NCBI RefSeq assembly: GCF_020097815.1
Contig: NZ_CP083663.1
Location: forward strand, 2,790,001-2,854,000
Reading direction: 5' to 3'
Source of the DNA: Haloprofundus salinisoli
Lineage (GTDB): Archaea > Halobacteriota > Halobacteria > Halobacteriales > Haloferacaceae
Length of the DNA stretch: 64,000 nucleotides
Shown one piece after another: positions 17,925 through 42,234 of the stretch. The notes beneath the pieces were generated by a model. The model did no database searches. It saw nothing but the letters and a program-made list of their open reading frames with translations, and had not been told where the DNA came from. The stretch's first letter is position 1; every line of letters starts with the position of its first letter. The position numbers and the translations under genes were made by a program.

Positions 17925-18320
17925 GTGAGCGAACGGGACACCAGTCGGTCGTCGGTGAAGACGTACGTACCGACGTATCAGAAAGAACAGTGGACCGACC
18001 ACGCCGACGAACTCGGGATGAGCCAGAGCGAGTTCATCCGGACGATGGTTCAAGCGGGTCGACGCGACTTCGATCTCGACGCGTCGGACGAAACTCTGGA
18101 GGCCCCTGTTGACGCCCCGAACCCCAGGGGTAACGTGCTCGAAGACCGAGTCCATGAAGTGCTCCATCGACGGGACGTCATGTCGTGGGACCAACTGGTC
18201 GAAGCGCTCTCGGGAGATTTCGAGAGCCGACTCGAAGACGCGCTCGACTCGTTGCAGTCGGCGAACCGAATTCGGTACAACGGACGCGAAGGGGGATACG
18301 TGGTGACCGATGGCGAGTGA
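17925..18320 (+). CDS. DUF5805 ribbon-helix-helix/winged-helix protein
   Basis: 131 residues from GTG 17925. Residues about 10-45 (SVKTYVPTYQKEQWTDHADELGMSQSEFIRTMVQAGRR) form a ribbon-helix-helix DNA-binding pattern. Residues about 70-131 (EDRVHEVLHRRDVMSWDQLVEALSGDFESRLEDALDSLQSANRIRYNGREGGYVV) look like a winged helix. In haloarchaea this family sits directly upstream of a XerC/D-like recombinase, as here: the stop overlaps the recombinase ATG at 18310. A regulator or accessory DNA-binding partner of the recombinase is likely. Confidence 0.85.
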   Translation: MSERDTSRSSVKTYVPTYQKEQWTDHADELGMSQSEFIRTMVQAGRRDFDLDASDETLEAPVDAPNPRGNVLEDRVHEVLHRRDVMSWDQLVEALSGDFESRLEDALDSLQSANRIRYNGREGGYVVTDGE

Positions 18321-19371
18321 ATCCACCGGGGGGACAGCAGAGACCGACGACCCCGTCGGCTACTTCCTCCAAGATATGGTGTACCACGGCAAGTCAGAGC
18401 GCACGCGGACCGAGTACGAACGAGTGCTGCGTCGGTTCGAATCGTTCCTCGCCGATCCCGACCGGAACCCCGGTGGTCGATCGGTCGCCCCCGCCGACGC
18501 CACCCACCGTGACTGCATGGCGTGGGTCCACTCGCTGCGCGGCACCGTCGCGTCGAGCACGGTCGCTATCTACGCCGCGTACCTCCACCGCTTCTACGGC
18601 TACATGACCCAAGTCGGCGTCTTCGACTCCAACCCGATGACGCTCGTCACCGAGGAAATGGACGAGTCGATCGAGAAAGATCCGACCCGCCGCGACATCG
18701 ACGTACCGACGATGCGGGCGTTCGTCGCCGACGTTCGACATCCTCTCCACCGAGCGCTCGTCGGGACGTTCCTCAAAACCGGCATCCGGGTGGGAGAGCT
18801 CTGCAACCTTGACCTCCGGGACGTGTCACTCGCCGACCCCGAGCTGTCGAACGCCTACGATCTCGGCGGGCGACCTCAACTGGACGCTCGTCCGAACTCG
18901 CTTTTCGTCTCTTCGAATCCGACGGTCGGCGAGCGACACAACGGCGAGATTCGGTCGGCGTCGAACAAGCGGAAGCGCGACACTGTGATCCCGATCGACG
19001 ACGAACTCTCTCGGTTCCTGAAATCGTGGCTGGCGATTCGTCCCGACCCCGTCTCACCCGCCGACCCGCTGTTCGTCGGTACGAGCGAAGGGTGGGGCGA
19101 GCGACTCACGCCGAACGCCGTTCACAACATCGTCACCACTTACGCAAGCGAGGCGGGGTGGTACCGTTCCGGCGGGGACGCGACCGAGAACGTCACGCCA
19201 CACTACTTTCGGCACTTCTTCACGACGCACCTCCGCGAGCGGACCGGCGACCGCGGCATCGTCAAGTATCTCCGCGGCGACGTCGCTACCGACATCATCG
19301 ACACGTACACCCACAACTGGGGCGGGCAAGTTCGGGAGACGTACGAGTCGAACATCTACTCGATACTCTGA
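18310..19371 (+). CDS. XerC/D-like tyrosine recombinase
   Basis: 353 residues. An N-terminal SAM-like core-binding domain (residues about 15-115) precedes the catalytic domain. Catalytic residues seen are Arg160 in KTGIRVGEL, His298 and Arg301 in PHYFRHFF, His335 in DTYTHNW, and the nucleophile Tyr345 in RETYESN. All needed residues are present, so it should be active. The conserved pairing with DUF5805 suggests a host chromosome or replicon resolution role rather than a prophage integrase; no phage genes are nearby. An AT-rich palindrome lies 113 bp downstream. Confidence 0.9.
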   Translation: MASESTGGTAETDDPVGYFLQDMVYHGKSERTRTEYERVLRRFESFLADPDRNPGGRSVAPADATHRDCMAWVHSLRGTVASSTVAIYAAYLHRFYGYMTQVGVFDSNPMTLVTEEMDESIEKDPTRRDIDVPTMRAFVADVRHPLHRALVGTFLKTGIRVGELCNLDLRDVSLADPELSNAYDLGGRPQLDARPNSLFVSSNPTVGERHNGEIRSASNKRKRDTVIPIDDELSRFLKSWLAIRPDPVSPADPLFVGTSEGWGERLTPNAVHNIVTTYASEAGWYRSGGDATENVTPHYFRHFFTTHLRERTGDRGIVKYLRGDVATDIIDTYTHNWGGQVRETYESNIYSIL

Positions 19372-36050: not shown

Positions 36051-36145
36051 CGCTCTGCGCAGTTCAGGTCACCGGACTCTGTTAGAAATCCTCAATCAAA
36101 GACAGTTTGGCGAAACCGTGCGAGATACAGAGCGTGTGTCTCGTG
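36051..36145. repeat. Degenerate or variant copy of the 83-bp repeat
   Basis: A left-arm-like CGCTCTGCGCAGTTCAG at 36051 and the strongly conserved right part GTGCGAGATACAGAGCGTG at 36118-36136 are spaced about 12 nt wider than in the seven regular copies. Its right part is the same as in copies at 37401, 38366 and 41226. It is the first occurrence of the repeat family and precedes the first cassette-like gene. Confidence 0.55.
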
Positions 36146-36163
36146 CGAGTTCACCACCGAAAA

Positions 36164-36598
36164 TTAGGTCTGTGACACAGGGGTGGCGACATTTCGTCTC
36201 CGGAGCCAATACTCACCCCCGGCAAGTAGACCATACGCAAGCAGATAGAACGGTGCCCAAAAGAGCACCAAGGCGAATGCAGGTGCGTCACCTCCTTCAC
36301 CCCCTAGAACGGGCAGGTAAATCAAGACGTGCCAGAACAGTAGGACGAGTCCCATGAGAATGGACGGACCTCGAATTCGATAGCGCACCCAGAGCACGAT
36401 TGGAACTCCAATTGTCCCGTACGCGAAGAGCAATCCAATTCCAACTGATGACCAGAATGAGCCGGTGATCTGTATGTCGGGCGTGAGCGCACTGTACCCG
36501 AGGACAATACCAGTATAAACGACGCTAGCGACGCCACTACTCAGGAGGGCTCGCTTCCATTTTCTTCTCGACGAAGACAATTCGTGGAGGGAGGACAT
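36164..36598 (-). CDS. Four-helix membrane protein, orphan
   Basis: 144 residues from ATG 36598 (MSSLHELSSSRRKWKRALLSSGVASVVYTGIVLGYSALT). Four hydrophobic helices near residues 19-36, 48-68, 76-96 and 105-130. The in-frame extension upstream to 37084 crosses the 83-bp repeat and is not coding. First gene of the AT-richer repeat region. No family recognised. Confidence 0.65.
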   Translation of the reverse strand: MSSLHELSSSRRKWKRALLSSGVASVVYTGIVLGYSALTPDIQITGSFWSSVGIGLLFAYGTIGVPIVLWVRYRIRGPSILMGLVLLFWHVLIYLPVLGGEGGDAPAFALVLFWAPFYLLAYGLLAGGEYWLRRRNVATPVSQT

Positions 36599-36688
36599 GA
36601 AGAAACCTGGTGGCCGAGGATTAATAAATTGACACGATGTATTGAGTGAACTGAATAGCTTGCCCGAGGACTTCTCCGTGCCCGACTT

Positions 36689-36771
36689 GCGCTCTCTATT
36701 CAGCAGTCGGTAAGCGAAACCCTCGACTGCTGTCAGTAACGGGCTGCGAGATACAGAGGATGTAGTCAGCA
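36689..36771. repeat. 83-bp structured repeat, copy 1
   Basis: Left arm GCGCTCTCTATTCAGCA, an internal 9-bp perfect stem CAGCAGTCG / CGACTGCTG (36701-36709 with 36724-36732), conserved CTGTCAGTAACGG, then the right arm TGCGAGATACAGAG and TGTAGTCAGCA. A further arm-like sequence lies about 57 nt upstream (36632). It sits between divergent genes at 36598 and 36884. Differs from copy 2 at only a few positions. Confidence 0.85.
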
Positions 36772-36883
36772 CGGGAACTGCGTCATTTTCTCCAAATGAA
36801 TCCTGAATTAGCCGATAGAATGTGCCTGCGGATGAATCAGTTTTGCAGAAGGCACTTACCGTCCTTTCGGTGTAGTAACCAAC

Positions 36884-37324
36884 ATGAATCGCCGTCAGGC
36901 CCTCGCAGTCCTCGGTACGCCTGCCCTCACGTCGGTAACAGGATATGCAACTCTCGAAGCCGAACTTGGGATGCGAGCCGATACACTCGGAGCAGTGACG
37001 CTGGCGAACAGTATTGCAGACCCGTTCAACGTCTCGCTCGAAGTCCTCCGTGACGGCGCTTCCGTGCATCAGGCATCGTATCAACTGGACCCGGGGTCAG
37101 AACAAGAACGGCCACAGTACACCATCAACGAGTGGAAAGAGAACCCGGATGCACGCCAGTGGACTATTCGGGCCAAGATACCCGAGAGCAAGTGGAGAGA
37201 CGCCACAATTGATGCGGCCAGAGGTTCTGAAAACGAATGTTACAGCGTCGCTGTTGTCACTGGTGATTGGCCAGAAACACCGTTGCTCGTCTTACTCGGA
37301 GGGTGTGAATCGGACAATCACTAA
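36884..37324 (+). CDS. Tat-exported protein with C-terminal Cys pair (lipobox lost)
   Basis: 146 residues. MNRRQALAVLGTPALTSVTGYATL has a twin arginine and hydrophobic core, but the lipobox Cys position holds Tyr (VTGY), so lipid anchoring is not expected unless this is a changed site. The mature part has the same layout as the lipoproteins at 12149, 39209 and 53988: FNVSLEVLRDGASVHQAS, then ECYSVAVV and GGCESDNH at the end. Probably secreted. Lies between repeat copies 1 and 2. Confidence 0.7.
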   Translation: MNRRQALAVLGTPALTSVTGYATLEAELGMRADTLGAVTLANSIADPFNVSLEVLRDGASVHQASYQLDPGSEQERPQYTINEWKENPDARQWTIRAKIPESKWRDATIDAARGSENECYSVAVVTGDWPETPLLVLLGGCESDNH

Positions 37325-37400
37325 CAACATCTGTTACACTCACGCTCTGTACTGACCAATCCAATCTGATTGAATCGGGAGATAATTCTGTGTGAGATAC

Positions 37401-37483
37401 GCGCTCTCTATTAAGCAGTCGGTAAGCGAAACCCTCGACTGCTGTCAGCAACGGGCTGCGAGATACAGAGCGTGTATTCAGCA
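37401..37483. repeat. 83-bp structured repeat, copy 2
   Basis: Closely matches copy 1 and has an 8-bp internal stem. Right end AGAGCGTGTATTCAGCA is itself a direct repeat of the left arm. An extra arm (CGCTCTGTACTGACCA) starts exactly 59 nt upstream at 37342, between the preceding stop codon and the element. Lies between convergent genes. Confidence 0.87.
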
Positions 37484-37547
37484 ATCAGATCTCGTTCGTT
37501 TCACGTTCTCGGTGGCGATACAGTCGTTAGGTGGGTGTGTCTACTGG

Positions 37548-38210
37548 TCACTCGGGCCCGTCGTAGTATTCGAACCCCCCCTGTTCTTCGAGTTCATCGA
37601 CCGTCTCTTCAAGTTCGTCAAGTGCTGCTCGGAGTTCGTCAATCTGGGTGCGCACAAAATCGTGACCACGGAGTTCAGTGAGTGCAATAAGTCTATCCCG
37701 GAGAAGGATGTCGTAGGCATCAACCTCTTCTTCTGGGTCACACCCGATGTTATTGGCGAGGACGTGGAACGCCGACCAGAGACCGTATCGACGGCCAGCA
37801 TCATCAGTTACCTCCTCAACCAAGCCGGGGCGCTCGTCGAAGGTTTCGTAATACTCTGCGGCCATATGGCTCCCAAGAATGTAGGCTTCTCCGAGGATTT
37901 CCTGCACGTCCTCCGGTCGGTTGGCGAAGGGCATCCCTTTCCGTGACCACGATTCGGCAAAACCTTCTTCGACGAGTTCGTCCCACCGCTCACGTTCGGC
38001 TTCAACGACCGCTTCGTACTCCCCATAGATTCCGAGAATCACCTCACTCTTCTCATATCGTGTATCCTGCCCAAAGCGAGAAAATCGCACTCCTTCACAG
38101 CCCTCGATTGTTTCGAGGCGATTAAGAGAAGGGACGATATACTCTCGAATCAGTTGTTCATCCGCTTCGTGGCCAGTAGTCACAAACGAAATCCTTTCGA
38201 CAGAAACCAT
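37548..38210 (-). CDS. Soluble orphan protein with C-terminal coiled coil
   Basis: 220 residues from ATG 38210 (MVSVERISFVTTGHEADEQLIREYIVPSLNRLETIEGCEGVRFSRF). Mixed alpha-beta N-terminal domain, a middle helical region (EILGEAYILGSHMAAEYYETFDERPGLVEEVTDD), and a C-terminal heptad stretch (RTQIDELRAALDELEETVDELEEQ). No catalytic motif recognised. It is the only clearly cytoplasmic product in this repeat region. Upstream AT-rich DNA separates it from copy 3. Confidence 0.7.
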   Translation of the reverse strand: MVSVERISFVTTGHEADEQLIREYIVPSLNRLETIEGCEGVRFSRFGQDTRYEKSEVILGIYGEYEAVVEAERERWDELVEEGFAESWSRKGMPFANRPEDVQEILGEAYILGSHMAAEYYETFDERPGLVEEVTDDAGRRYGLWSAFHVLANNIGCDPEEEVDAYDILLRDRLIALTELRGHDFVRTQIDELRAALDELEETVDELEEQGGFEYYDGPE

Positions 38211-38365
38211 ATTCCTACTGTTAAGAGAGACCATCTCAATCTTTCCCTCCCAGAGATATTCCTCCAGAAACCTGGAGTCTTAACTGTTTGCAAATTTGTA
38301 AACTATACTCCTATCTTTACCACTCCTTCGACCGTTTTTATCAGCAAACCCCAGATGACCGATAC

Positions 38366-38448
38366 GCGCGTTGTATCTCGCATCTCCCCCAATGATCTAC
38401 CGAGATGGTGTCAAAAAACCGTGCGAGATACAGAGGGTGTATTCAGCA
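38366..38448. repeat. 83-bp structured repeat, copy 3 (compensated arms)
   Basis: Left arm deviates from the consensus (TGTATCTCGCA at 38372-38382) but is perfectly complementary over 11 bp to its right arm TGCGAGATACA (38422-38432). An inner 6-bp stem CATCTC / GAGATG (38381-38386 with 38402-38407) keeps the fold with different bases from copies 1 and 2. This is the clearest sign that pairing, not just sequence, is kept. Confidence 0.85.
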
Positions 38449-38506
38449 AGCCGCCGTCCTTTGTTTTACACTGAATGAGTTGAACAGACCGATAGGTAGA
38501 GCATGC

Positions 38507-39070
38507 CTATTTACAAGCGACCGTTTCCCACCCGGTCGAAGGAATTGAGCCCGACGAATCTCCGGGTGCGTGAACGGCGAAGTCATCCGTGACGTAATAC
38601 CACCCGTAGAACTCCTCGCTCCCTGCAACTGTCGTGCTGCCGCCTTCCTTCGTGAAGTCTAAGCTCACCCACACTCGGACGACAAACCCTGCTTTCGTCC
38701 TCTGCATGACCTTGGTGTCCCATCCATCGAAGCCGCTGAAGGTGACCTCCCGCTTGTTTTCCACGGTTGCCGAAGAGTACGCCTTCTCAAATTCAAGAGA
38801 ATAGTTCACCACACTTGATTTTGAAACCGAGGAAGGCAGAGATGGATAGGTTGAGTCAGGTAGTTCACTTATCTCGCAGTTACTGGTTGGTTTTGGGACG
38901 TTCGGAAGGGGATCGGGTGTAGGAGAGGCTGTCGGAGTGACTCCATCTGCTCCTTCGCTGGCCGGGGACTCCGTTGCAGTGGGGGAAGAACTCGTGGTCG
39001 TGGAACAGCCTGCGGAGATACTAAGTGCCAGAACAGTAGTTGTACCGAGGCAGAATTGTCGTCTATCCAT
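38507..39070 (-). CDS. Tat lipoprotein, orphan
   Basis: 187 residues from ATG 39070: MDRRQFCLGTTTVLALSISAGC gives a twin arginine and lipobox Cys22. A Ser/Thr/Pro tether (about 23-60) leads to a beta-rich domain (VVNYSLEFEKAYSSATVENKREVTFSGFDGWDTKVMQRTKAGFVVRVWVSLDFTKEGG) ending FYGWYYVTDDFAVHAPGD...ACK. Not clearly related to the Cys-pair lipoprotein family in this window. Surface-anchored. Confidence 0.72.
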   Translation of the reverse strand: MDRRQFCLGTTTVLALSISAGCSTTTSSSPTATESPASEGADGVTPTASPTPDPLPNVPKPTSNCEISELPDSTYPSLPSSVSKSSVVNYSLEFEKAYSSATVENKREVTFSGFDGWDTKVMQRTKAGFVVRVWVSLDFTKEGGSTTVAGSEEFYGWYYVTDDFAVHAPGDSSGSIPSTGWETVACK

Positions 39071-39123
39071 GATTTTGAGAAACTGTCGAATCGGTAAATA
39101 TTTTGTCTGCACTAATCAATTCA

Positions 39124-39140
39124 CGCTCTGGATTGAGCAA
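39124..39140. repeat. Lone left-arm copy of the repeat family
   Basis: ACGCTCTGGATTGAGCA, 17 nt, matches the repeat arm GCGCTCTGTATTCAGCA at most positions. No right arm is visible at the expected distance. It lies between two divergent lipoprotein genes and so may be a decayed element. Confidence 0.5.
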
Positions 39141-39208
39141 TTCGTGGTGCGAATTGGTCAGATTAGTAACTACACAAAGACTATATCCAACTGAGAAGAT
39201 GCTGGAAT

Positions 39209-39676
39209 ATGGTTTACTCTCCAACTCGCCGAAAAATTCTCCAACTTGGTGGGGCCGCTCTTGGGGTTGGCCTCGCTGGGTGTTCTTCGCCCCAAGAAGA
39301 ATCAATAACTGAGAGTCGTCTGGTCGAACTGTCGGTATCGAACCATACCGAGAGCCAACACACCGTCCATGCAGTGCTTCAGGATGGTGATGAGGTCGTC
39401 TACTGGTCGTCGATTCAGGTCACATCCGGTGATAGAGAGAAGAACGATGCAGGTGGCGGGGAATTTTCCAGCTATCCGACGGAGGCAGGGTTATACACAC
39501 TATACGCGAAGGGAGACAATCAACCAGACGACGCATGGACTCAAGCGAAAATCTACGAGTGGGGATACCCTTGTTGGAGCCTCAATATTAAACTCGGATT
39601 ACCGTTCTCCGACAGTCCTGAAAAAATCTCGATATGGAGGCACAACAAGTGCAACGCAGAGACCACCGATACATAG
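39209..39676 (+). CDS. Tat lipoprotein with C-terminal Cys pair
   Basis: 155 residues. MVYSPTRRKILQLGGAALGVGLAGC gives a twin arginine and lipobox Cys25. Mature part LVELSVSNHTESQHTVHAVLQDGDEVVYWSS and end YPCWSLNIKLGLP...HNKCNAETTDT follow the family seen at 12149, 36884 and 53988: an N-terminal strand with N-x-T/D, H-x-V strand, then two Cys about 30 apart. Expected on the outer membrane face. The stop is followed immediately by an arm of repeat copy 4 (39677). Confidence 0.75.
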   Translation: MVYSPTRRKILQLGGAALGVGLAGCSSPQEESITESRLVELSVSNHTESQHTVHAVLQDGDEVVYWSSIQVTSGDREKNDAGGGEFSSYPTEAGLYTLYAKGDNQPDDAWTQAKIYEWGYPCWSLNIKLGLPFSDSPEKISIWRHNKCNAETTDT

Positions 39677-39735
39677 TCAGTCTGTATCTACCAATCTGAT
39701 TCCTCGCCAGACCACTACTGACCAGTGGCCGATTC

Positions 39736-39818
39736 GCGCTGTGTATGCAGCACAGCCTCGACGAACTCCACGACAGCTGTCAGTAACGGATTGCAAGATA
39801 CAGAAGGTGAGTTCATCA
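39736..39818. repeat. 83-bp structured repeat, copy 4
   Basis: GCGCTGTGTATGCAGCA left arm, conserved GCTGTCAGTAACGG, and right arm TGCAAGATACAGAA. The right terminal part GTGAGTTCATCA is diverged. An arm-like TCTGTATCTACCA starts 59 nt upstream at 39677, exactly after the preceding stop codon. Lies between convergent genes. Confidence 0.82.
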
Positions 39819-39867
39819 GGCGATTCCTCGTGTTGGCCACCGGAACGATTTGCTGAGATTAGAGTAG

Positions 39868-40263
39868 TCACCGAGAAACAAGTCGGTTCAAAAGCCATGC
39901 ATAGCCACCTCTCACACTCACCCCATACGCGACTGCCATCGCGACGAGCCAGAGAAGTCCAATAGTGAGTGGTGAACTCTCGCCAGTGGGAGAGTAAATG
40001 CCGTTTGGTGTAACGACATTTCCGAAGATGAACAACACAGTAGTGAGAAATCCGCAGCGCCAGACCACACCGGATTTGAGTTCAGGGAACCTTCGGAGAA
40101 GGACGTATGCTGCCATCAACGCACCGGCGGCCCCAATCACTAACGGAATTCCCTGAGATACTTCTGTCCCTCTGAGTAGCGCGTTGGTGACTCCCATCAA
40201 GCCAATACCGACAGACAGGTGGAAGGCAAACCAAATCGAGAGTAACCGGCGGCCAGAAGCCAT
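39868..40263 (-). CDS. Four-helix membrane protein, orphan
   Basis: 131 residues from ATG 40263 (MASGRRLLSIWFAFHLSVGIGLMGVTNALLRGTEVSQGIPLVIGAAGALMAAYVLLRRFPELKSG). Four hydrophobic segments near 8-27, 39-56, 70-86 and 98-120. Arg-rich turns suggest cytoplasmic loops. No family recognised. Flanked by copies 4 and 5 of the repeat. Confidence 0.65.
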   Translation of the reverse strand: MASGRRLLSIWFAFHLSVGIGLMGVTNALLRGTEVSQGIPLVIGAAGALMAAYVLLRRFPELKSGVVWRCGFLTTVLFIFGNVVTPNGIYSPTGESSPLTIGLLWLVAMAVAYGVSVRGGYAWLLNRLVSR

Positions 40264-40343
40264 GTTCACAAATCATATTCTGGCTGAATAAGTACTGAGG
40301 CTGTCGGTCAAAATGATCCCCTGACGGAACCAATTCAAGATTC

Positions 40344-40426
40344 GCGCTCTGTATTCAGCACTATCGCTGGAACCTCTCTTTCCGGTGTCAGAGATCGCGT
40401 GCTGACTACAGAGGTTGCAGCCATCA
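40344..40426. repeat. 83-bp structured repeat, copy 5 (compensated arms)
   Basis: Left arm carries the consensus GCGCTCTGTATTCAGCA. The right arm has changed from TGCGAGATACAGAG to TGCTGACTACAGAG, which restores pairing to positions 4-17 (13 of 14). This independent change complements copy 3, where the left arm changed instead. An arm-like sequence lies 59 nt upstream at about 40285. Lies between divergent genes. Confidence 0.83.
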
Positions 40427-40519
40427 CAGAAGCCTCATTTATTTCGACTCACCAACGCTGAACTAACCGTTCAGTAGACGTCCGAAAGAATCAATTGAGT
40501 CACTGATAATCTCGCGAGT

Positions 40520-40684
40520 ATGTCCCCTGAAACGTGGTTCATTCTCCTCCTCTTCCTGATTGTGACTGTCCCGGTATTCATCGGCGTTGTTGCACTCATT
40601 AGCCGTGCGACTGGCGGGGCCGATGACGAAGAGATAGAGGAACTGAAACGACGAGTGGAAGAACTTGAAACCCAGCAGAACTGA
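40520..40684 (+). CDS. 54-residue single-helix membrane protein with coiled-coil tail
   Basis: Short reading frame MSPETWFILLLFLIVTVPVFIGVVALISRATGG, one transmembrane helix, followed by the charged tail ADDEEIEELKRRVEELETQQN, a short coiled coil. This architecture (one helix plus short acidic coiled coil) is common among haloarchaeal microproteins. Lies between repeat copies 5 and 6. Confidence 0.7.
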   Translation: MSPETWFILLLFLIVTVPVFIGVVALISRATGGADDEEIEELKRRVEELETQQN

Positions 40685-40766
40685 TTATTGCCTACCGTTA
40701 GCCAGCTCACCTGTACTGAGCGATTTGATTAGCGCCCACATCGAGCGCTGAACCGATAACCGATAT

Positions 40767-40849
40767 GCGCACTCTATTCAGCAGCCGGTGAATGAACTCC
40801 TCAACCACTGTCAGTAACGGAGTGCAAGATACAGAGGGTGTATCTCTCA
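40767..40849. repeat. 83-bp structured repeat, copy 6
   Basis: GCGCACTCTATTCAGCA left arm, CTGTCAGTAACGGAG middle and TGCAAGATACAGAGGGTGTA right arm. Right terminus diverged to TCTCTCA. The arm-like TGTACTGAGC is upstream at about 40706 (61-nt spacing). Lies between a plus-strand stop and a minus-strand stop. Confidence 0.83.
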
Positions 40850-40931
40850 CTGAAACCCCATTTATTTCGCCCCATCGGCTCTGAACTAACCGCTAAGTGG
40901 ACATGTGTATTGAGTTCAAGAGAAGAACAGG

Positions 40932-41129
40932 TTACGCGAATTTTGACCGCTGACCTATCCAAAATCCGAATAGCATTACGAGGAGTAGAGTAGCCATAGG
41001 AACCCAGAATGCTACACTAGTGAACAGTCTGATGGAGAGTATCTCAGGGTAGAAGATGGCTAGCCAAAGAGGAATCCCCATTAACAAGCCTGTTGCAGCA
41101 GCAAGCAGAAATTTGGGATAGGAATCCAT
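40932..41129 (-). CDS. 65-residue two-helix membrane protein
   Basis: From ATG 41129: MDSYPKFLLAAATGLLMGIPLWLAIFYPEILSIRLFTSVAFWVPMATLLLVMLFGFWIGQRSKFA. Two hydrophobic helices (about 7-27 and 35-59). No family recognised. The extension upstream to 41177 crosses an arm of the repeat and is excluded. Confidence 0.62.
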   Translation of the reverse strand: MDSYPKFLLAAATGLLMGIPLWLAIFYPEILSIRLFTSVAFWVPMATLLLVMLFGFWIGQRSKFA

Positions 41130-41225
41130 CTCTATACTCGAATACAGTCTACCCACTGATAAGTTCGCCCTCTGCATTCAGCAATAGACAGCCCTGTGGT
41201 TCGGTGTGAGAAATCTGCTGTAGTC

Positions 41226-41308
41226 GCGCGCTGTATTCAGCACGACCGTAGAAACCTACCCAATTCTTGCCAGAAACAGCATGCGAGATACAGAGCGTGT
41301 ATTTATTG
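41226..41308. repeat. 83-bp structured repeat, copy 7
   Basis: GCGCGCTGTATTCAGCA left arm and TGCGAGATACAGAGCGTGTAT right arm. The final bases TTATTG overlap the stop codon region of the DUF2270 gene (41303-41305), so this copy touches a coding sequence. An arm (GCCCTCTGCATTCAGCA) sits exactly 59 nt upstream at 41167. Confidence 0.85.
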
Positions 41309-42025
41309 GTTCGTTTCTTTCCACTCGCCGGGGTCGCCTTCACGGAATTCACCTTTGGCGTGGCGTTCTCGGGGCCAAAACACAACGCCTACCAGTATCA
41401 CGTAGAACGCACCGACGAGAGTAACCATGACAATTCCGGGGATGTAAGCTATTTTAGCGGCTTCAAGCCAGGTTTGACGTGGCGGCGTAAACGCTGTAAT
41501 CCGAAAGACCCATGCAGCGAGTAAGACCCCGAGCAGGGCGAGGTACACGCGTCGAAGCCGGTTGGCGAGCGCTTCTTGGAAGGAGACTTTCAGGGTCGGG
41601 ACGCGGAAGTCCGCACTCAACTCCGCTCGCCAGTTTTGATGTTCAACTTCTTGCGTTGGGTCAAGGGCGTTCGCGAACAAGTTCTCTTGGAGCATTCGAA
41701 CCCGCGAGCGAAAGACATCGTAGTCCCGATACCGTCGCGCTTCGATGCCGAGAAAGGCGGTAACGACGACTACCCCAATGAGCAAAATGTAGTGGGGGTT
41801 GTCGGGACTCGAAAATGCCCACGTCAAGATGGCCGCCATCACCGTCACCGCCCACGTCGTCGTCTGGTCGAGGCGCTGTCGCCACGTCGTGACACGATCC
41901 ATCTCTCCGCGGTAGAAATGGGCCATCACCGACCCAAGTCCGGTACTCTGGTCAACCATCTCTCGCCCTATCTCCCGCTGTTCGGGCGCAGTTGGGTCGA
42001 ACTCATCGCTGTCTGCCTCGGTCAT
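41303..42025 (-). CDS. DUF2270 membrane protein
   Basis: 240 residues from ATG 42025 (MTEADSDEFDPTAPEQREIGREMVDQSTGLGSVMAHFYRGEMDRVTTWRQRLDQTTTWAVTVMAAILTWAFSS). The YRGEMDRVTTWRxRLDxTTxWAVT pattern and following helices match DUF2270. Hydrophobic helices lie near 55-75, 80-97, 160-178 and 195-220; EARRYRDYDVFRSRVRMLQENLFANAL is a conserved amphipathic region. Function unknown. It is more GC-rich than its neighbours, so it may be older host sequence at the edge of the repeat region. Confidence 0.82.
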   Translation of the reverse strand: MTEADSDEFDPTAPEQREIGREMVDQSTGLGSVMAHFYRGEMDRVTTWRQRLDQTTTWAVTVMAAILTWAFSSPDNPHYILLIGVVVVTAFLGIEARRYRDYDVFRSRVRMLQENLFANALDPTQEVEHQNWRAELSADFRVPTLKVSFQEALANRLRRVYLALLGVLLAAWVFRITAFTPPRQTWLEAAKIAYIPGIVMVTLVGAFYVILVGVVFWPRERHAKGEFREGDPGEWKETNQ

Positions 42026-42102
42026 ATCGTAGGTACGTTTCCCCTTCACATAAACAGGGAGAGAGCGTTTCGAGAAACTATGATTTGGTGTACATCGAAC
42101 AA

Positions 42103-42119
42103 GCGCGTTGTATTCAGCA
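42103..42119. repeat. Lone left-arm copy, right border of the repeat region
   Basis: GCGCGTTGTATTCAGCA, 17 nt, nearly identical to the left arm of the 83-bp repeats, without a right arm. It lies between the DUF2270 start and grpE and is the last member of the family seen, so it marks the right limit of the array. Confidence 0.7.
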
Positions 42120-42234
42120 CGCGTTTACTGTCAATCTCTATCCATTCTCGCAGAGTCGTCCACCGCTACCGTCCCGCCACCGCCCGCCGTTTGTTTCTGC
42201 AATCCTTAAGCCGAACCAGCGGTACAGTCCGACT

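Follow-up and report, generated by a model that had tools for sequence, protein, structure and literature searches.

Arrays of small genes between dual-core repeats in Haloprofundus salinisoli: a probable integron-like cassette system of Halobacteriales

The archaeal integrons described so far combine a canonical IntI integrase with attC sites, in an account that makes no mention of haloarchaea (PMC9668308). The attC site has a conserved fold with little sequence conservation, and as of 2016 the integron field had no reliable model for the origin of cassette sites (PMC4792948). In haloarchaeal phages, the inverted repeats on either side of the int1 gene of phiH and phiCh1 belong to a tail-fibre switch (PMC6210493). 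Here we analyse a 64,000-nucleotide stretch of the Haloprofundus salinisoli chromosome (the window; NZ_CP083663.1, positions 2,790,001 to 2,854,000), in which a family of repeats separates small orphan genes. From sequence comparison, we consider it likely that this region is the cassette array of an integron-like haloarchaeal system, that its recombinase is most likely a 234-aa Int1-like protein, and that the common repeats are derivatives of that protein's element that have lost the int gene. A literature search returned no published account of such a system in haloarchaea, which is not proof of its absence from the literature.

The original prediction described seven repeat copies that align over 83 bp without gaps and share conserved arms, as we also find. 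Alignment of the window copies with further copies from the same genome, however, gives a unit of ∼101 bp, longer than first described because an outer half-box lies on either side; arm starts are always 55 bp apart. The unit reads TGACCGATAC-GCGCYCT-GTATTCAGCA, then ∼39 bp, then TGCGAGATAC-AGAGGRT-GTATTCAGCA. Each end of the repeat forms a core of two inverted boxes of ∼10 bp (TGCnnnATAC/GTATnnnGCA, as read directly from the alignment) that flank a 7-bp spacer, in the layout LO-7 bp-LI for the left core and RI-7 bp-RO for the right core, and the two cores are mutually inverted within the repeat. The middle three bases of the boxes occur as alternative alleles (GAG, AAG and TGA). Two inverted boxes around a short spacer are the usual form of a tyrosine-recombinase core, and the repeats are, judged by this anatomy, putative dual-core tyrosine-recombinase sites of conserved sequence. 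A profile of the core is highly specific: at the threshold used, 200 kb of random sequence gives 0–1 matches. In the window it detects additional half-sites at 36119, 39123, 41167 and 42103. The parts of the window array are as follows.

36077..36150, +, degenerate first site; its right core TGCGAGATAC-AGAGCGT at 36119 is intact, and two congeners have a homologous left boundary
36164..36598, −, cassette gene, 144 aa, no Pfam match, membrane-like by eye
36676..36776, +, complete site 1
36884..37324, +, cassette gene, 146 aa, no Pfam match
37388..37488, +, complete site 2
37548..38234, −, cassette gene, 228 aa, no Pfam match above cut-off
38353..38453, +, complete site 3, left arm diverged
38507..39112, −, cassette gene, 201 aa, lipoprotein-like, with copies of 93% identity at unrelated loci in two congeners
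39113..39140, +, left-only core (half-site) at 39123, dividing a two-gene interval
39209..39676, +, cassette gene, 155 aa, lipoprotein-like, no Pfam match
39723..39823, +, complete site 4
39868..40269, −, cassette gene, 133 aa, no Pfam match
40331..40431, +, complete site 5, right inner box TGCTGACTAC
40520..40684, +, cassette gene, 54 aa
40754..40854, +, complete site 6
40932..41177, −, cassette gene, 81 aa, no Pfam match
41157..41184, +, left-only core (half-site) at 41167
41213..41313, +, complete site 7; inner CACGACCG followed by TAGAAA, apparently the int-bearing parent minus the int gene
41303..42049, −, cassette gene, DUF2270 membrane protein, with copies of 78% identity at other loci in two congeners
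42093..42120, +, left-only core that closes the array on its right side; homology to congener G222 begins at 42103

No tRNA, sought as a sign of tRNA-associated insertion, lies near the array. Many cassettes carry a leader of ∼50 bp, about CCTCGTTTATTYCRTCTCAYCGACGCTGAACTAACCGCTMAGTAGG-GTGC, directly after the right core regardless of gene direction (37489–37540, 40432–40485 and 40855–40905 in the window, and also at loci L024, L025, L091 and L097).

What is conserved in these sites is sequence, not fold. Covariation between the outer arms, on which the original prediction leaned, does not exceed chance: in 42 own-genome copies 80.4% of cells pair versus 80.0% after shuffling partners among copies, a value reached in 107 of 500 shuffles, and the covariation score is equalled in 119 of 500. 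The inner stem gives a weak signal only, and a stem slid by 3 columns scores as well. The changed arms of copies 3 and 5, which had seemed to preserve pairing, represent alternative alleles of the middle three box bases and not compensatory changes. RNAalifold yields no consensus structure for the repeat copies, the single-strand fold is not conserved on either strand (z-scores from +0.5 to −3.2, with no consensus), and no known RNA family matches the repeats. The likeness to integron attC sites or structured mobile repeats that had been suggested holds for the behaviour of the repeats and fails for their molecular nature.

The repeats are far beyond chance, with dozens of copies throughout the genome. 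BLAST locates 41 places in H. salinisoli, and the repeat model gives 86 matches at E≤1, about 60 at E≤1e-4 and 59 at E≤1e-5, distributed over the chromosome and the second replicon in ∼9 clusters. Copy number is 8 to 54 in four congeners, and the family is found in 5 of 5 congeners; one of them (G144, C1 ∼55–93 kb; loci L095–L096) has a single very long array of ∼35 sites across ∼37 kb. The wider archaeal search that the original prediction had proposed reveals an order-wide family: at E≤1e-3, matches occur in 221 of 293 sampled genomes of Halobacteriales (204 of 255 good genomes; 67 of 87 genera). Sampling 295 genomes across the phylum gives 40 positives, every one of them from Halobacteriales; the sampled genomes of other orders, roughly 240 in number, have no match.

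Single genes between copies had been reported for the window, and this is borne out except in the interval 38453–39723, where two genes are parted by a half-site; in general one, occasionally two, open reading frames (ORFs) lie between successive sites. Site orientation is uniform, with 34 neighbouring pairs within 3 kb in the same orientation and none opposed in H. salinisoli, and 40 and 1, respectively, in congeners. The ORFs themselves run 18 with and 24 against the direction of the sites (n = 42). The congener comparison that had been called for shows genes gained, lost and exchanged at the window locus, with breakpoints at the repeats. This locus lies between PAC2 and grpE (gene names assigned by eye): the array is missing from congeners G144 and G204, whereas G084 and G222 each have one different single cassette. 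Sequence shared with G084 and G222 ends on the left side at the right core (36132–36136), and in G222 it resumes at the left core (42103). The lipoprotein cassette 38394–39109 recurs with 93% identity at unrelated loci in two congeners, and a PhzF-like cassette (also named by eye) is duplicated between two own-genome arrays, with identity stopping at the left core. The 78 segments that array loci have in common possess 156 ends, of which 27 fall ≤30 bp from a core in both sequences (0.18 expected; maximum of 3 in 1000 shifts), and 6 segments have both ends at cores (0.001 expected). Examples are L022 10063–10488 in L095 (95% identity), L023 5525–5993 in L095 (92%) and L094 3385–5213 in L096 (96%). 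Presence and absence of genes at one locus, together with their recurrence elsewhere with ends at cores, indicates that the arrays consist of exchangeable cassettes. In Haloprofundus halobius (G222:C1 1695266–1696555, L094), the DUF2270 cassette of the window adjoins a tyrosine recombinase gene (L105).

The enzyme acting on these sites is most likely an Int1-like protein of the P0002 type, to judge from the cores around its genes. P0002 (234 aa, C1:1480861–1481562) is encoded within an own-genome array, with a right core starting 33 bp past its stop codon. Close homologues occur in many genera at 66–93% identity, often on plasmids and often with stops; no close relatives are found in viral contigs. 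Among 33 close homologues, 20 have a left core, 25 a right core and 19 both, mostly with the left core 44–86 bp before the start and the right core ∼33–37 bp after the stop. Around distant homologues cores occur in 0 of 22 cases, and there are none around phiCh1 int1. Sites are found within 10 kb at 17–18 of 20 loci of the close set versus only 2 of 20 distant loci, and a comparison of the two genome lists shows that all 22 sampled genomes with a close P0002 homologue also have sites. P0002 spans the catalytic domain only; in its family R65, K124, R184, W207 and Y216 are invariant and H181 is nearly so. It is 42–48% identical to Int1 of phiCh1, phiH, ChaoS9 and HCTV-5, and reaches 20.1 bits against the integron integrase model TIGR02249 (cut-off 265); no IntI-type integrase is recognised. 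A C-x-C-G-Y-C motif at residues 92–97, between the catalytic boxes, is invariant in the homologues and common to phiCh1 Int1, and is a possible metal site that would be unusual among tyrosine recombinases.

Other recombinases were considered and set aside. A tyrosine recombinase of ∼353 aa (window 18310–19368, +), 91–95% conserved in all five congeners, belongs to the core genome, lies ∼17 kb before the array and has no core scoring ≥20 around it. The own copy of the P0001/L059 family is frameshifted and cores are absent around that family, and the recombinase at C1:377565, related to L105/L103, was likewise dismissed. Immediately upstream of another array lies a frameshifted tyrosine recombinase with a C-terminal zinc-ribbon-like motif (L025 2614–4118; C1 ∼547.6–549.1 kb), from a family that is common in Halobacteriales and is not flanked by cores.

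Since left and right cores flank int at set distances, the recombinase gene is itself enclosed in a large site. From the stop codon onwards, the 3′ flank of this parent aligns to the inner part of the small site with a score of 31.1 versus 20.1 ± 3.4 for shuffled sequence. As in a miniature element, the ends are shared with the int-bearing element (19 of 33 close homologues) and the gene is gone. The small 101-bp sites are therefore best read as putative int-deleted derivatives of the recombinase-bearing element. Beyond this, and with somewhat less assurance, we favour an order-wide analogue of the integron with an independent origin in an Int1-like DNA invertase, in which the sites are deletion derivatives and cassettes are born when int-less copies bracket a host gene.

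Under this mechanism, the Int1-like enzyme would recombine like cores of neighbouring sites, and the gene between them would be excised as a circle. Such excision between equal cores is possible because the repeats of an array all point one way. The circle could then re-insert at any other such core, and small accessory genes would thereby be gained, lost and shuffled. Catalysis of the exchange by a P0002-type enzyme, the circular intermediate and the choice of the spacer that is cut are the steps that we infer. Several points weigh against a cassette system of this kind. All of the evidence is comparative, and mobility is deduced from it. Spacers differ from site to site, and classical double-strand exchange has little tolerance for such variation. 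The evidence is mixed as to whether a site moves with its upstream or its downstream gene, and thus both cores may be used. Three of the five congeners, one of them with 54 sites, have no close P0002 homologue, so that many, perhaps most, arrays would be orphaned or served in trans, in a manner similar to integrase-less integron arrays (CALIN-like). In the own-genome P0002 copy, moreover, the left core carries an indel of one base. Finally, breakpoints are resolved only to ∼30 bp.

This last point would suit homologous recombination between dispersed repeats, which could shuffle genes with no dedicated recombinase, as would the many arrays that have no recombinase gene nearby. However, random site pairs have only 65% identity in the stretch between the cores (60 bp) and would be a poor substrate, and both the two-box core with its 7-bp spacer and the conserved placement of cores around recombinase genes would be left unexplained; we regard such shuffling as unlikely. 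We are equally sceptical that the repeats are akin to miniature inverted-repeat transposable elements (MITEs), inserted independently beside genes that they do not carry along. The resemblance of the repeats to deleted forms of a recombinase-bearing element speaks for this view, as do the comparable mobile repeats of ∼110 bp known in Haloquadratum (PMC3119063). Independent insertion, however, would not give a shared orientation (34:0 and 40:1), and whole genes appear and vanish together with the repeats and are found again elsewhere between cores. Least probable of all, and very doubtful, is a true integron whose IntI and attC are too divergent for detection. Cassette arrays, four-box inverted-repeat sites and uniform site orientation would all agree with it, and integrons exist in other archaea (PMC9668308). 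Against this, the cores differ from GTTRRRY/RYYYAAC, the conserved feature is sequence rather than fold, the candidate recombinase scores 20 bits where 265 are required of an integron integrase, its gene lies inside the site, and 24 of 42 cassette ORFs are oriented against the sites.

If the cassette system served by an Int1-like recombinase is real, gene-cassette systems would have evolved independently a second time. About three quarters of the sampled haloarchaeal genomes would carry this one, and integron finders would miss it, since its sites do not resemble attC and its recombinase does not resemble IntI. It would also offer a concrete model for how cassette sites originate. The system may account for a large share of the small orphan genes on haloarchaeal islands and plasmids, predicts which genes travel together, and suggests a type of mobilising enzyme for the small mobile repeats of haloarchaea.

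Of the known systems, integrons (PMC9668308) share with the haloarchaeal arrays mostly single-gene cassettes that come and go at the sites, four-box sites that all point the same way, a tyrosine recombinase, and the frequent occurrence of orphan arrays without an integrase. They differ in that the haloarchaeal boxes (TGCnnnATAC) are unrelated to the attC boxes (RYYYAAC/GTTRRRY), and in that the haloarchaeal sites conserve sequence whereas attC conserves fold. The haloarchaeal recombinase, moreover, is not IntI and is encoded inside the site, cassette ORFs run in both directions, and arrays are scattered on chromosome and plasmids. No attI platform was identified, the right core 33–37 bp past int belonging to the int-enclosing element. 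The Int1 segment of phiCh1, phiH and ChaoS9 (PMC6210493) has a recombinase of 42–48% identity whose gene likewise lies between inverted recombination sites, whereas the phage system flips tail-fibre genes without cassettes and has no such core around phiCh1 int1. The SMR-A repeats of Haloquadratum walsbyi (PMC3119063), compared by description, are similar in size (∼110 bp) and in having terminal inverted repeats, show no target duplication and have an unknown mobiliser, but are inserted in IS605-type palindromes and form no cassette arrays; on that likeness in description, these small mobile repeats may be related to the 101-bp sites. MITEs and composite miniature transposons (TIME-COMP, PMC13367494) similarly comprise a small derivative of a larger element and move the DNA between two copies. 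These elements use a transposase and terminal repeats and would be expected to insert in random orientation, whereas the ends of the haloarchaeal sites are tyrosine-recombinase cores and their orientation is uniform within arrays.

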